Source of the DNA: Candidatus Woesearchaeota archaeon CG10_big_fil_rev_8_21_14_0_10_44_13
GTDB taxonomy: Archaea > Nanobdellota > Nanobdellia > Woesearchaeales > UBA12501
DNA: 64,000 nucleotides
Direction of reading: 5' to 3'
Assembly: GCA_002762985.1 (NCBI GenBank)
Contig: PCXZ01000016.1
Span: 1 to 64,000 of the forward strand
In this document: positions 882 to 63,720 of the stretch, in pieces
Position numbering within the stretch: position 1 is the stretch's first letter
How the letters are laid out: each line of letters opens with the position of its first letter
Translations under genes and position numbers: made by a program
The notes under the pieces: generated by a model
Database searches by the model: none
Told to the model about the DNA's origin: nothing
Seen by the model: only the letters and a program-made list of their open reading frames with translations

Positions 882-2466
<1,585 letters not shown>

Positions 2467-2629
2467 TAAACTTTAATGGTTTTGTCAGGCCTTCGGGTCT
2501 GGCGAAATTATTTAAGTTAAAATCAGAAGTTGAAATTCGTGTAGAAGGAAATAAGGTTCTGCTGCTCATTTTTTTTATTTTTATTCCATTTTCATTTTCA
2601 AGGATAAAAAATTCAAAATTCACAAAAAC

Positions 2630-2703
2630 GGGCCTGTAGCTCAGCCCGGTAGAGCATCGCCCTTGCAAGGCGGGGGCCGCGGGTTCAAATCCCGCCGGGT
2701 CCA
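2630..2703 (+). tRNA. tRNA-Ala(TGC)
   Basis: Cloverleaf GGGCCTG..., anticodon loop CTTGCAA, T-arm GGGTTCAAATCCC; located in the 16S-23S spacer. Confidence 0.96.
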
Positions 2704-2927
2704 TCGAGGTCATTGATACGCAATTTTGCCATGCAATATTTCGAGGTGGGATTTGCACGCCAAAAAAAACAGAAGCAAAAAAGAGACAATCAAGAAAAGA
2801 CAAAAACAGAAATCGCAATCAAAAATCAATCACAGATTATAATCACCAATTTTTCCGATTCGTTATGTGACCATAGCGAATCGTTGGGTGAAACATGAAT
2901 TACTGATCTTACGGTTCATGTTGATGA

Positions 2928-2944
2928 AACCATGCATAGGTAAA
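2928..2944 (+). promoter_or_regulatory. 5' half of 23S processing stem
   Basis: AACCATGCATAGGTAAA is the perfect 17-nt reverse complement of TTTACCTATGCATGGTT at 5829-5845. Confidence 0.88.
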
Positions 2945-2950
2945 AAATAC

Positions 2951-5821
2951 GCTATTAGGTGGATGACTTGGCTCTGGTGCCGAAGAAGGGTGTGACAAGC
3001 TGCACAAAGCTTTGGCGAGATGCACGTAATCTTTGAACCAAAGATCCCTTAATGAGACTTCTCGTAAAATCCGAAAGGATGGGGAACGCAGGGAATTGAA
3101 GCGTCTTAGTACCTGCAGGAAAAGAAATCAATCGAGATGCTGTGAGTAAAGGCGATCGAAAACAGCAAAAGGCAAACTGAATCCGTTGCAGTAATGTAAT
3201 GGAGATGTGGTGTGATGGACTGTTTTTTAGGCCTAACCGAAAGATTCGAAGTTTTCTGGAAAGAAACGCCGTAGAGAGTGATAGCCTCGTAGAAGAACGT
3301 CGGTGGCCGTAGCAGTATCCTGAGTACTGCTTATCGGATATTAAGCAGGAATTTGGGAGGCACTAACTTCCAACCTTAAATACAACCAGAGACCGATAGC
3401 AAACGAGTACAGCGATGGAAAGTTGAAAAGAACTCTTGACAGAGATTCAAAAGAGCCTGAAACCTAATAGTTATAGTGTGGCAGTGCTCTACGGAGTTCT
3501 GCCGCGCGTTTTGAATAACGTGCCGGGGAGTGTATTTGAGTGGCGAGGGTAATTCTGCAAAGATGCACCCAAAGCGAAAGCGATAGCTCGCAAGCAATGA
3601 GGAGCAAGGTATGAAAGTGCCTTGAGTCACTTGGATACGACCCGAAGCCAAGCGATCTAACCCTGGGTAAGGTGAAGCGCGGGTAAAACCGCGTGGAGGC
3701 CTGCAGAGGTTCTACGTGCAAGTGTTCTTCTAACCTGGGGCTAGGGGTGAAAAGCCAATCGAGCTTGGTGATAGCTGGTTCCTACCGAAGTTGGCCGCAG
3801 TCAAGTCTTGAATGAGACAGCCACGATTGTAGAGCTACGGATCAGGGGCTTAGGGAGGGAAACCTCTCGGCCCTTTGTCCAACTCCGAATGTTTTGGCGT
3901 CATAGACTTCAAGAAATGGGGATCCGGGGTAACCTTGGATTCCGAGAGGGGAACAACCCAGACTGCAGTTAAGGTCCCAAAATATCAACTAAGTGTGAAA
4001 GGGTGAAAAGTGTCTACAGCCTAAGACAGCGAGGAGGTTGGCTTAGAAGCAGCCATCCTTTAAAAAGTGCGTAACAGCTTACTTGTCAAGGTTGTAGGCC
4101 TTGAAAATGGACGGGGCTAAGTTGATTACCGATACTGTAGACATCCGAAAGGATTGTGGTAGGTAGGCGTTCTGCTAGGGCAGAAGCATTTCCGAGAGGA
4201 AGTGTGGACCTGGCAGAAATGAGAATCCCGGTCAAAGTAAGATCATAGCAGAGTGAGAATCTCTGCCACCGAAAGGGCAAGGGTTCCTTGACAATAAAGG
4301 TTAGTCAAGGGTTAGTTGGTCCTAACTGAACTCCTAACAGGAGGGATGGAAAGGGAAACAGGTTAATATTCCTGTACTGCTTTAGTATGTGCGGCAACGC
4401 AAGTTCAGTTTCCGACATTTTGGGCTAGATCAACATGAAACGTCTTTTATGTTAACCAAGATAAATCTGGGGAGTATCGTAATGATGAGATCCAGATTAA
4501 ACTTGGGAATAGTATTCCTTATGGAGTATTTGATTGATGCCTGGAGTCCATGAAAAGGGAACTGAAAAAAATCTTCAGCATCCATACCCAGAACCAGCAC
4601 AGGTGCCCCTAGGTGAGAAACCTAAGGTGTCAAGGCGATAATCCGATTAAGGGAACTCGGCAAATTGGCCCCGTGCCTTCGGTATAAGGGGTCCCTGCGT
4701 TTGTTAGCTAAGCTAGCGATTGCAGGGTGCAATGACTAAGATGGTCCGACTGTTTAACAAAAACACAACTTTCTGCTAGCCCGTAAGGGTGCGTACAGAA
4801 GGTGACGTCTGCCCAGTGCCAGTACTTCAAACTCCTTTTCAAGGGAGCTAAGAGCTGGTAAACGGCGGGAGTAACTATAACTCTCTTAAGGTAGCGTAAT
4901 ACCTTGCCGTTTGAATGACGGCTTGCATGAATGGCGTAACGAGATTGTCACTGTCCCTAATCGGAAGCCTCTGAAAACTTATTCTGGTGCAAAGGCCAGA
5001 GATATCCAGTGGGAAGCGAAGACCCCGTGAAACTTTACTGTAGCTTGTAGCTGTGATGTAGATCCTGATGTGCAGCGTAGATGGTAGTTGCTAAAGCTTA
5101 GCCGCTAGGTTAAGTGTAGACGACAATGAGACACCATCCTTTGGGATTTACATTGCTCACTTTAGAAATAAAGAACAACTATTGGCGGACAGTTTGGCTG
5201 GGGTGGCACGCCGCTAAAAAGATATCAGCGGCGCCCAATGGTTGGCTCAACCCGGTTGGAAATCGGGTGTTGAGTGCAAGAGCAAAAGCCAGCCTGATTG
5301 GATTGTCAAAACTAAGCAATCCAAAGACGAAAGTCTGGTCTAGCGAACCTTTACATCTCCTTAGTGGGGGGTAGAGATGACTGAAAAGTTACTCCGGGGA
5401 TAACAGAGTTGTCGCGCCCGAGAGCTCCTATCGACGGCGCGGCTTGCTACATCGATGTCGGCTCTTCCTATCCTGGTCGTGCAGAAGCGGCCAAGGGTGA
5501 GGGTGTTCACCTATTAAAAGGGATCGTGAGCTGGGTTCAGAACGCTGTGAGGCAGTTTGTTTGATATCTACTGGATATGTCGATGTCTGAGGGGAAGGAA
5601 CTTCTAGTACGAGAGGAACGAAGTCTCGAGGCCTCTGGTCTAACGGTTGTCCGACAGGGCAGGCCGTGCAGCTACGCCTTTTGGGATAAGTGCTGAAAGC
5701 ATCTAAGCACGAAGCCCTCCTCGAAAAGAGACATCATAGAACCGCCGCAGAAGACGGCGTTGATAGAACTGGTGTGTACGCACGAAGGCAACGACGTGTT
5801 CAGCACGCAGTTACTAATAGT
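2951..5821 (+). rRNA. rrl: 23S ribosomal RNA (boundaries approximate)
   Basis: TAACTATAACTCTCTTAAGGTAGC, GTACGAGAGGAACG (sarcin/ricin loop), CTGGGTTCAGAACG; terminal helix GCTATTAG/CTAATAG. Confidence 0.96.
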
Positions 5822-5828
5822 TCATACC

Positions 5829-5845
5829 TTTACCTATGCATGGTT
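5829..5845 (+). promoter_or_regulatory. 3' half of 23S processing stem
   Basis: TTTACCTATGCATGGTT pairs perfectly with 2928-2944. Confidence 0.88.
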
Positions 5846-18700: not shown

Positions 18701-18824
18701 CTTACACTTCTTTAAAATAATAAAACGTCGCGACCCGGATTGAAATGATATCTGCCGGAGATTTTTAAAAAAATCTCGTAAAAACTCAGGCGGCTCCTAG
18801 TGCTTCGCACCGGAGCCACCAATA

Positions 18825-18921
18825 CGCCGCGACCCGGATTTGAACCGGGATATCCCGAAGGAAACCAGCTTTCTGTCCTAATACTCAAGGCTGGCGCAGT
18901 ACCGGGTTGTGCCATCGCGGC
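18825..18921 (-). tRNA. tRNA-Ser(TGA), probably with a ~13-nt anticodon-loop intron
   Basis: Acceptor GCCGCGA/TCGCGGC, discriminator G, long variable arm, anticodon stem CCAGC/GCTGG enclosing a 20-nt loop CTTGAGTATTAGGACAGAAA. Confidence 0.85.
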
Positions 18922-18949
18922 ATGAAAGCACTGTCCTGATTATGACTTT

Positions 18950-19065
18950 GATTGAATATTTGATGATTTAACTTATGATTTTAGCATTATTCGGTCCATT
19001 CAACGAAGTTGAATGGACCTTGTTGTTGCGCTCGAGATGCGCGTAACCATCTCCGGCAGTTGTGC
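18950..19065 (-). repeat. partial copy (A5) of tRNA-associated structured repeat family A
   Basis: TTGCGCTCGAGATGCGCGTAACCATCTCCGG shared with copies at 37230-37265 and 54325-54355. Confidence 0.6.
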
Positions 19066-19170
19066 CATCGCGGCATGAATATAAGTGGTTTATAGGCATT
19101 TATAAATATTTTGATAAGAATTGGCATGATAAATGAACTGTTTAAGGCTTAAAAAAGCATTAGGCCTGCC

Positions 19171-25116: not shown

Positions 25117-25308
25117 GGGCCTGTAGCTCAGTGGTAGAGCGCTGCTCTCGCAGAGCGTGTTACGCGACCCTCGGACGCAAACGCAAGGTGGGCATAAAAA
25201 CTGCGTTTTTAGCCCACCGAAGGATTCATATAAAATCGTCCAAAAAGGTATCAGATGTAACATGCTCGAGTCCAGCAGAGGCCGCGAGTTCAATTCCCGC
25301 CAGGTCCA
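25117..25308 (+). tRNA. tRNA-Ala(CGC) with 120-nt intron (25153-25272)
   Basis: Exons GGGCCTGTAGCTCAGTGGTAGAGCGCTGCTCTCGCA / CAGCAGAGGCCGCGAGTTCAATTCCCGCCAGGTCCA. BHB: central CUCG/CGAG, bulges CAG and UCC, inner helix AGCGUGUUAC/GUAACAUGCU. Confidence 0.93.
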
Positions 25309-25370: not shown

Positions 25371-25545
25371 TTTGCACCACCATCCTCATTCCATTCGCCT
25401 CCATCGCACAACCACTCGATATGGCTCATGGTTGCTTCTTTGACTAGCACAACCGAACACGATTAAATTTTTGTGCCCTCGTTTGCACTCGAGCACATTC
25501 GGGCAACGGGGCGGGACGTCCCGTTATTTTATCAGATGGGGGCGG
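25371..25545 (-). repeat. copy A1 of structured repeat family A (diverged 3' part)
   Basis: TTTGCACCACCATCCTCA..CCATTCGCCTCCATCGCACAACCACTCGATATGGCTCATGG shared with 53985-54150 and 36964-37035. Confidence 0.7.
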
Positions 25546-25613
25546 GACGGTTTTTGATTAAACAACTAATATCTAAATAGCTCCATCACCAATCTAAGAA
25601 AATATAAACTGAT

Positions 25614-34149: not shown

Positions 34150-34405
34150 GGTGCAGTCAAGTAGTGTGTGCCTTAAGGCCAATGCCACCTAGCGGAGTCC
34201 ACAATGATACCTCTATCTGCATATAAATCTGATGCCCGTTGAGATAAACATCGACCCGGAGCTTGGTATTGGCCTTAGTCAAAAGCCGCTACTGCGCTCC
34301 GTGCCAATGTTTAAATCGCTTCTTCGTCAGATTTATTTGTACCTGCTTCTTTAACCTTAAACTCCGCTAGGCAGTAGCGGCTTTGACACTTAACTTGACT
34401 GCACC
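34150..34405. mobile_element. MITE-like/structured 256-bp element (family B, copy 1)
   Basis: 13-bp perfect TIRs GGTGCAGTCAAGT/ACTTGACTGCACC, 9-bp TSD, internal complementary pairs AAAGCCGCTACTGC/GCAGTAGCGGCTTT and others. Confidence 0.85.
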
Positions 34406-36829: not shown

Positions 36830-36928
36830 GCCTCCGTAGCATAGCGGTGGTGCACGTCCTTGGTATGATCGGAAGAAAAATCGATTGCAATGAGGACGAG
36901 GTCGTGGGTTCAAATCCCGCCGGAGGCT
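36830..36928 (+). tRNA. tRNA-Thr(GGT) with ~27-nt intron (approx. 36866-36892)
   Basis: Acceptor GCCTCCG/CGGAGGC, anticodon stem CGTCC/GGACG, BHB-like UUGG/GCAA with inner helix GAUCG/CGAUU. Confidence 0.9.
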
Positions 36929-36963
36929 TTTTTGATATTTTGATTTGAATGTGTTTTTCTAAC

Positions 36964-37312
36964 AATTTGTGCACCATACCCTACAATCCGTTCGCCATAA
37001 CCGCACAACATATTGATATGGCTCACTGAGGCACAACCTTAACTTGCTCAACTGACCTCTCACGACTGCTCTCTTGCCCAGCTCGGTGTAGGAGGGGGTA
37101 GGGGGGAAGTGGTACCCGCACAGTGTTCTTGGCCATTGACACCGCCATCAAGGAGGGTATCCTCACTTCGTTCGGAACCCTCCGAATAAAATGTAGGTCG
37201 TGGGGCTTTACGAAGTAAACGCCCCACTTAGCATTGCCCTCGAGATGGGCGTAACCATCTCTGGTCCGGAACGTAGTTCCCCCACTAATATTTTTGAAAT
37301 AACTTATCAATA
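36964..37312 (-). repeat. copy A2 of structured repeat family A
   Basis: GCACCAT..CCGTTCGCC..GCACAAC..GATATGGCTCA..GCCCAGC..GTAGGAGGGG..CCATTGACACCG..GCGTAACCAT..GGAAcgtaGTTCC. Confidence 0.75.
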
Positions 37313-53984: not shown

Positions 53985-54391
53985 TTTTGCACCATGACCC
54001 TCAACAGAAAATCTGCGGATTTTCTTAGTTGATTTGTTTCAAAATCAACAACAGAAACTTTTGGTTTTCTTAGTTGTTTATTGTATAAACAACAATCCAT
54101 TCGCCTCCACAGCACAACTGCCGGATACGGCTCATGGCCACACAACTTTGATCTGATTAACTGACTTGCCAAATGCTCCCCTGCCCAGCAACGCTGTAGG
54201 AAGGGGACGAGAGCAGTGGTTTCGTCCATTGACACCGACAGCTAGGACCATTTCGCTGCGCTCAATGGTCCGAACTGAATGAATTATTCGGACCACTCCG
54301 AACGAAGTGAGGATGTGGTCCTTGCTGTTGCGTATCAAATGCGCGTAACCATTTGGGGCTGGAAACCTTGGTTTCCCCGCAAATATTGATG
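53985..54391 (-). repeat. copy A3 of structured repeat family A (longest)
   Basis: Same ordered motifs as A2, with extra hairpins. Confidence 0.75.
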
Positions 54392-57167: not shown

Positions 57168-57332
57168 TCCCCAATCCATTCGCTTCCACAGCTGAACTTT
57201 CCGATATAGCTCATGCCCTCTTCTTCTTCCCGCTCAACCAATCTCTCAAATGTGCACCAGCCCAGCACAATGCAGGAGGGGGACGGGGGGCACCTTGGTG
57301 CCCCCGTAGATATTGTTGTTTAGTTCACAAAA
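57168..57332 (-). repeat. copy A4 of structured repeat family A
   Basis: CCATTCGCTTCCACAGC..CCGATATAGCTCATG..GCCCAGC..AGGAGGGGGACG..hairpin GGGGCACCttGGTGCCCC. Confidence 0.7.
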
Positions 57333-63334: not shown

Positions 63335-63720
63335 AGTCAACTATTGTATTAAGGCCGGTAAAGATAATTCCGACTAAAGTCGAAATTATCAGACTTGCCT
63401 CGACAAGCTCGGCAAGCACCACCCAGCGCAGTATACAATTCTCTTTGATAAGCAAATAAATCTGACGCCCATTAAGTTATCATATCGGTACGGAGCGTGG
63501 TGCTGGCCTTACCCGAAAGCCGCTACTGCAAACGGAAAATCTGCTGATTTTCCTAGTTCCAAAAACTGCGTTTTTGGAACCTCCGTAATTATGTTTAACC
63601 GCTTCTTCGTCAGATTTGTCAAAATCAGAAATCGCCTTGCGGATTTCTGACATATTTGTAATTCTCTGTTTAGAACTTGGACTCCGCTAGGCAGTAGCGG
63701 CTTTCTCACTTAAGTTTACT
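63335..63720. mobile_element. family B element, diverged copy 2
   Basis: Shares TTAAGGCC, AAATCTGACGCCCATTAAG, GGCCTTA, AAGCCGCTACTGC, CGCTTCTTCGTCAGATTT, ACTCCGCTAGGCAGTAGCGGCTTT, CACTTAA in the same order as 34150-34405. Confidence 0.8.

Follow-up and report, generated by a model that had tools for sequence, protein, structure and literature searches.

A dispersed structured repeat behind genes of a Woesearchaeota genome, with a conserved fold and nested hairpin inserts

The stretch of DNA analysed here (the window; positions 1-64000 of contig C22 in the genome of Candidatus Woesearchaeota archaeon CG10_big_fil_rev_8_21_14_0_10_44_13, 1.515 Mb in 36 contigs) contains at 36964-37312 a sequence whose conserved blocks recur elsewhere, and the question is what kind of element this is: a structured RNA linked to tRNA genes, as a preliminary description had it, or a repeat that spread through the genome by other means. 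Searched with blastn against its own genome, the sequence matches around 50 places, the best E value apart from the self-match being 5e-54. The 5' half of 24 copies that carry no insert there served to build a covariance model of 60 positions (R1), which finds at least 41 copies of the family, here called family A, in the 1.515 Mb (E <= 4e-7); as several contigs end within copies, the family may be a little larger. Within the window, the cores begin at 25384, 36981, 54090 and 57169 in model coordinates. The conserved blocks named in the preliminary description are present in the sequence and do recur at 25371, 36964, 53985 and 57168, in a family larger than was stated there, whereas its partial copy at 18950, said to lie beside a tRNA-Ser, is only a younger hairpin insert without a core and has tRNA-Tyr(gta) as its neighbour.

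The core of family A (around 170 nt, non-coding) consists, in this order, of a T-rich lead-in, the motif GCACCA, the 5' arm CAACAAT of a closing helix (P0), a hairpin (P1), a variable linker and a 3' half (e.g., 57169-57320); lead-in and GCACCA are absent from some copies. P1 has the consensus CCRT-TC-GCC ... GGC-TC-AYGG, with conserved AAC and ATA positions in its loop. Concerning the 3' half, type I is composed of P2 (CTGC...GCAG around GCCCAGC), a G-rich GGAGGGGGAC, the hairpin P3 and the 3' arm of P0 (ATTGTTG); type II (..GGGCGGGGTAATTTTTGAGG) is without this arm. The features of the window are listed in Table 1.

Table 1. Family A copies of the window and parts of copy A2
Feature	Position	Strand	Remark
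Hairpin insert (GAGATGCGCGTAACCATCTC) without core	18986-19058	+	adjoins tRNA-Tyr(gta)
Copy A1: 5' half as in copy A2, type II 3' half (..GGGGGCGGGACGGTTTTTGATT)	25371-25570	+	
Intron-containing tRNA-Thr(ggt)	36830-36928	+	upstream of and sense to copy A2
T-rich lead-in and conserved GTGCACCA	36947-36975	+	5' edge of copy A2
Copy A2, P0 5' arm CTACAAT	36981-36987	+	helix that closes the core; weak here
Copy A2, P1 hairpin CCGT-TC-GCC ... GGC-TC-ACTG	36988-37028	+	covariation
Copy A2, P2 CTGC ... GTAG around GCCCAGC; G-rich GTAGGAGGGGG block begins	37066-37091	+	weak
Copy A2, nested hairpin insert GTGGTACCCGCACAGTGTTCTTGGCCATTGACACCG	37100-37262	+	approximate boundaries
Copy A2, P3 hairpin GGAAC-GTA-GTTCC	37268-37280	+	type I 3' hairpin, read by eye
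Copy A2, P0 3' arm ATTTTTG	37290-37296	+	most copies ATTGTTG
Copy A3: core, 5' hairpin insert (~54003-54090) and 153-nt insert (54210-54362)	53985-54385	+	
Copy A4: type I core without insert	57169-57320	+	58 nt after stop codon of AMP phosphorylase

Copy A2 carries in P1 a G-C variant at a covarying A-U pair. Its nested insert contains three hairpins (37146-37189, 37200-37227 and 37242-37261) and has a near-identical match only in the copy split over contigs C13 and C28, which is 92-95% identical to copy A2 over query positions 80-334 (blastn), whereas the other copies are not. Since around 37100-37262 is a nested insert, the blocks CCATTGACACCG and GCGTAACCAT belong to inserts and not to the core; the picture of ordered blocks separated by variable hairpins holds as to the order, whereas the hairpins are largely nested inserts.

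The evidence for a fold rests on covariation, as the folding energies by themselves are unremarkable (mean z around -1.05 on either strand). Among 37 copies, P1 is paired in 93.1% and shows 22 compensated cells, compared to a mean of 3.5 in shuffled alignments (0/500) and to at most 5 in slid-register controls; among 24 copies, 9 cells are doubly changed (shuffle mean 1.4; 0/500). All of these cells are counts of sequences and not of events. The exchanges comprise A-U to G-C in nine copies, U-A to C-G in three, and a change of the innermost C-G to G-C, A-U or U-A in eight, and the same P1 covariation results from the alignment fitted to the model (alignment A4) and from a structure-free MAFFT alignment (alignment A2). 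The 2x2 internal loop TC/TC of P1 is nearly invariant (positions 97-100% identical), and the single-stranded positions A31 and A41 are invariant. For the four-helix structure of type I, 16 copies were used that are free of inserts or trimmed (the 153-nt insert was cut from five, a double-hairpin insert from two); both partners are changed in 24 cells, compared to 8.2 in shuffles (0/500), and P0 and P3 contribute to this: P0, an imperfect helix of 7 bp, is paired in 74% of cells with compensatory change in four of its seven pairs, and P3 is paired in 94% with both sides changed in 11 cells. P2 exhibits one-sided changes only, including G-U-like variation, and is weak. The fold of family A is thus maintained, with strong covariation in P1 and further covariation in the closing helix and the 3' hairpin, and the compensated pairs together with the position-wise conservation show that it is of consequence, be it for spreading or for what each copy does in the cell. 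Family A resembles in its covarying helices and invariant unpaired positions the structured RNA motifs found by comparative genomics (e.g., PMC2864571), but its evidence comes from paralogues in a single genome instead of orthologues, and it has no match in Rfam. An extra inner P1 helix, considered for the minus strand, is not supported by the alignment columns (by eye).

Concerning the nested inserts, four copies share the 153-nt insert without a difference and a fifth has it at 99% identity (mean pairwise identity 99.7%), whereas the cores hosting it are on average 72% identical (one pair 94.6%, the others 65-76%). The double-hairpin insert (CTGAAAATG..CATTTTCAG-GC-CTGTCAAACGAAGTTTGACAG) occurs in six copies, always at GATA|insert|TA, and is 94% identical across them, compared to 64% for their cores; as unoccupied copies read GATATGG, the TA is duplicated. 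Because insert identity is well above core identity, the insert blocks are younger than their hosts. The simple reading is site-specific insertion, and from the 94% and 64% identities we infer that the inserts are probably mobile. For the 153-nt insert, gene conversion involving a tract slightly longer than itself is an alternative, and shared sequence does extend, by eye, a few bases past it on both sides. In form, the inserts resemble mitochondrial repetitive and double-hairpin elements (PMC2800124; yeast mtDNA, PMC4478555): both consist of two short tandem hairpins in near-identical copies and lie within loops of structured non-coding DNA. The inserts differ in their archaeal chromosome, in their exact target inside another repeat and in the TA duplication.

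Related palindromes (GGTGGGC..GCCCACC and GAGATG-CGCGTAAC-CATCTC) are found at 25117-25308 of the window and at four further loci (L037, L040, L050, L052); given that they lie in or beside tRNA introns and in other non-coding DNA, the inserts occur beyond family A as well. Further arrangements were observed besides these. At 18824-19090, a partial copy (around 22 nt) of the 5' end of tRNA-Tyr (TTGTGCCATCGCGGCATGAA) lies beside this tRNA with hairpin inserts between them, and similar partial tRNA 5' copies adjoin tRNAs in a relative (genome G006; L136, L138, L144). On the minus strand of locus L029 (1980-2240), a 30-nt direct repeat GGGAGTTCTGAGACGGTGGTTTCGTCCATT, which includes a gene end, flanks a hairpin insert. 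A second structured intergenic repeat, unrelated to family A, occurs in two copies in the window (34250-34400 and 63484-63720) with arms of the form AAAGCCGCTACTGC ... GCAGTAGCGGCTTT.

No convincing copy of family A was found outside its own genome. Model R1 gave none in 60 relatives; four of the weak hits were read and lie mostly in coding-looking DNA, one being a partial match of 27 nt. Equally, no convincing copy was detected among the 340 other genomes of a 341-genome sample of the order, which covers nine genomes of the same family, and the two scans gave weak hits only, one of them (genome G146) with 26.6 bits; at most 16 candidates per genome were scored in the scan of the order, the own genome thus returning 16 of its 41 copies, and since the large scans also use stricter filters, weak relatives could be missed. 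No copy was present in phage and plasmid records, and one exact pattern did not occur elsewhere in GTDB contigs. The AMP phosphorylase of the copy A4 locus is 68, 64 and 54% identical to proteins of Candidatus Woesearchaeota MAGs, and the element is absent from the 3' ends of this gene in two of these MAGs (64-68% identical protein). The preliminary description had not recognised the family and had proposed a covariance-model search of related archaea and Rfam; the outcome, 41 own copies without a convincing one in relatives or a match in Rfam, agrees with that. Relative G006 possesses different hairpin-rich intergenic repeats, the largest group joining 11 gaps across 556 kb, compared to 34 across 464 kb of the own genome; homology to family A was rejected because sequence and pairing differ (partly by eye). 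At L126, L135 and L147, G006 has intergenic repeats of a family different from family A, which contain hairpins and are closed by a long helix of the GCAAGAAACGG / CCGTTTCTTGC type. This suggests that hairpin repeats arise independently in related genomes.

The number of copies, their restriction to one lineage and their mosaic build speak for a non-autonomous element that spread, and we give a probability of roughly 0.5 to the reading that family A is a lineage-specific, non-autonomous element of REP/MITE-like kind overlaid by younger hairpin modules. The core, ending in one or the other 3' half, would have spread by copying into sites just behind genes, possibly by means of a fold-reading enzyme; the fold and not the exact sequence would be recognised and therefore kept. 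The inserts might be second-order mobile hairpins for which the core is a safe landing site, and the element could incidentally act at 3' ends or as a terminator. Against such mobility, no transposase is linked to the core, a reverse transcriptase (PF00078), as expected for a group II intron or retroelement, is absent from the genome, the 153-nt insert may owe its spread to gene conversion, and position-wise conservation at around 65% similarity is explained no less well by selection on the individual copies.

Concerning known systems, REP/REPIN sequences with their RAYT transposases (PMC2817692, PMC3116915, PMC8266576) are, like family A, dispersed, intergenic, palindromic, non-autonomous, multi-copy and often situated at the 3' ends of genes, and the 3' half of family A (G[T/C]AGGAGGGGG...CCCCCGCAGAT) looks like some of the listed REP patterns, for instance GTGGGAGGGGGCTTGCCCCCGAT. 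However, a REP is a palindrome of 20-40 nt, whereas the family A core has around 170 nt and several helices; the GTAG at the 5' foot of REPs corresponds to GCAG (many copies), GTAG or ATAG, which pairs in P2; and the genome contains no RAYT. The sole Y1/HUH transposase found (PF01797; G000:C30:45-389, L108), which lies at the end of a contig and has a GC-rich hairpin of its own, is IS200-like and scores far below the RAYT cut-off (NF047646, 21.8 bits against 80; IS200 model, 49.8 against 55). By tetranucleotide, size and lack of a RAYT, family A is not a REP family. Prokaryotic MITEs (PMC10969869) are likewise non-autonomous, multi-copy and lineage-specific, and the ends of family A can pair (P0). 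Unlike MITE terminal repeats, P0 is short and imperfect and does not enclose the T run or GCACCA, and type II is without its 3' arm; a target duplication is seen only at the double-hairpin insert (TA), the core ends being uncertain. A parent insertion sequence was sought in the Y1 element and rejected, as its flanks and hairpins are unlike family A. No integron attC R-box pair (RYYYAAC / GTTRRRY) was noticed by eye.

The placement rule for family A is gene 3' ends. By hand, 39 copies were assigned to their neighbours with a codon-usage gene caller and tRNA calls, in stretches of a few kb around the copies; a sample of 464 kb, with 142 gaps of at least 120 nt (76 co-directional, 18 convergent, 48 divergent), served for the expectation. 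None of the 39 copies lies between divergent genes (34% expected; p around 2e-6), which would also be expected from selection against promoter damage, and 13 lie between convergent genes, where orientation is uninformative. Most copies are situated 45-180 nt behind the upstream gene, among them genes for S7, S12, L35Ae, aIF5A, thermosome, ThrRS, LonB, DNA ligase, Mre11, thioredoxin and rubrerythrin as well as tRNAs. The association with tRNAs, emphasised in the preliminary description, reduces to five of the 39 copies in sense behind a tRNA (p around 0.008, taking 45 tRNAs among around 1395 genes as an assumption; Rfam found only 24 of these tRNAs, and two of the five are Val-like genes read by eye) and is thus a mild enrichment and not a rule, most other copies following protein genes. 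The distance of around 40-65 nt given there for tRNA-Ala, -Thr and -Val was recovered for the first two (around 66 nt from the tRNA-Ala end at 25308 and around 43 nt from the tRNA-Thr end at 36928, up to GCACCA); the Val-like gene, ending around 53931, is visible by eye and is called neither by ARAGORN nor by Rfam, and copy A4 follows no tRNA but the AMP phosphorylase gene.

This placement brings in the main and serious rival, a cis-acting RNA element in which the T-rich lead-in ends upstream transcription and the nascent fold guides termination, cleavage or 3'-end stability; we hold it to be possible, if on the whole unlikely. It is favoured by the spacing, by 32 of the 39 copies following a gene in sense, with a modest bias of 19:7 in the informative co-directional gaps (p = 0.03), by runs of at least five T within 35 nt before the model in 28 of 41 copies (17 of 84 matched control gene ends), and by several upstream genes: S7, S12, L35Ae, aIF5A, thermosome, thioredoxin, rubrerythrin and tRNAs are normally highly expressed. 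On the other hand, such T runs are present within 120 nt at 46% of control gene ends, seven co-directional copies are antisense, around 41 of around 1400 genes carry the element, and the folding energies are ordinary. As the T run precedes the fold, moreover, a large part of the latter may be missing from the transcript. More doubtful still is the composite reading that family A would be a new archaeal class of structured 3'-end RNA, proliferated in one genus and now the specific host of mobile double-hairpin elements of second order, which would be the archaeal equivalent of those in mitochondria.

Stand-alone small RNA genes, possibly on the minus strand, appear improbable. There, the P1 loop would read as a tandem G-A/G-A motif, which is typical of folded RNAs; it is nearly invariant, P1 is more stable on this strand by 3-6 kcal/mol (five copies tried), and A31 and A41 do not vary. 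But the minus strand has no clear or consistent upstream TATA box or promoter (by eye), the tally of G-U against A-C leans weakly to the plus strand, and 41 divergent copies in one genome with none in relatives would be odd for such genes. H/ACA and C/D guide RNAs and self-cleaving ribozymes were rejected for want of a consensus (by eye only).

There is equally little to expect from a site acting as DNA, in which palindromic parts would bind a chromosome-organising protein and placement at gene ends would be selected. The four covarying P1 pairs are without the G-U intermediates that an RNA would often show, and REPs are likewise known to be dispersed at gene ends; yet the P1 arms are interrupted and lie around 24 nt or more apart, P2 does vary in a G-U-like manner, and we know of no binding protein.

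A relic of rRNA or of a known RNA family, or a minus-strand protein gene, is very improbable, as variation tracks base pairing and not codons and, for all that a 98-aa minus-strand ORF spans copy A2, the gene caller left all 41 copies without a gene, Rfam 15 gave no match above the gathering threshold and nothing near thresholds (both thresholds tried), and blastn with copy A2 missed the rRNA operon (883-5838), a match to which the preliminary description had named as a refutation. The compensatory changes across P1 and the lack of a called gene bear out its claim of a structured and not protein-coding sequence; a minus-strand protein with an M-S-x-I-type frame was rejected on these grounds and because the double-hairpin insert breaks the frame.

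The REP/MITE-like reading is preferred here, a cis-acting role at 3' ends being its main rival, and function as RNA or as folded DNA would both be compatible with the sequence. DPANN archaea with small genomes are usually called compact; here, the scarce intergenic space partly holds a folded repeat not found in relatives. Its 41 diverged paralogues amount to a set of mutants made by nature, and the fold that is needed can be deduced from them in the absence of related genomes. With hairpin modules occupying a single precise position within an element older than themselves, the movement of tiny hairpin elements becomes directly testable.
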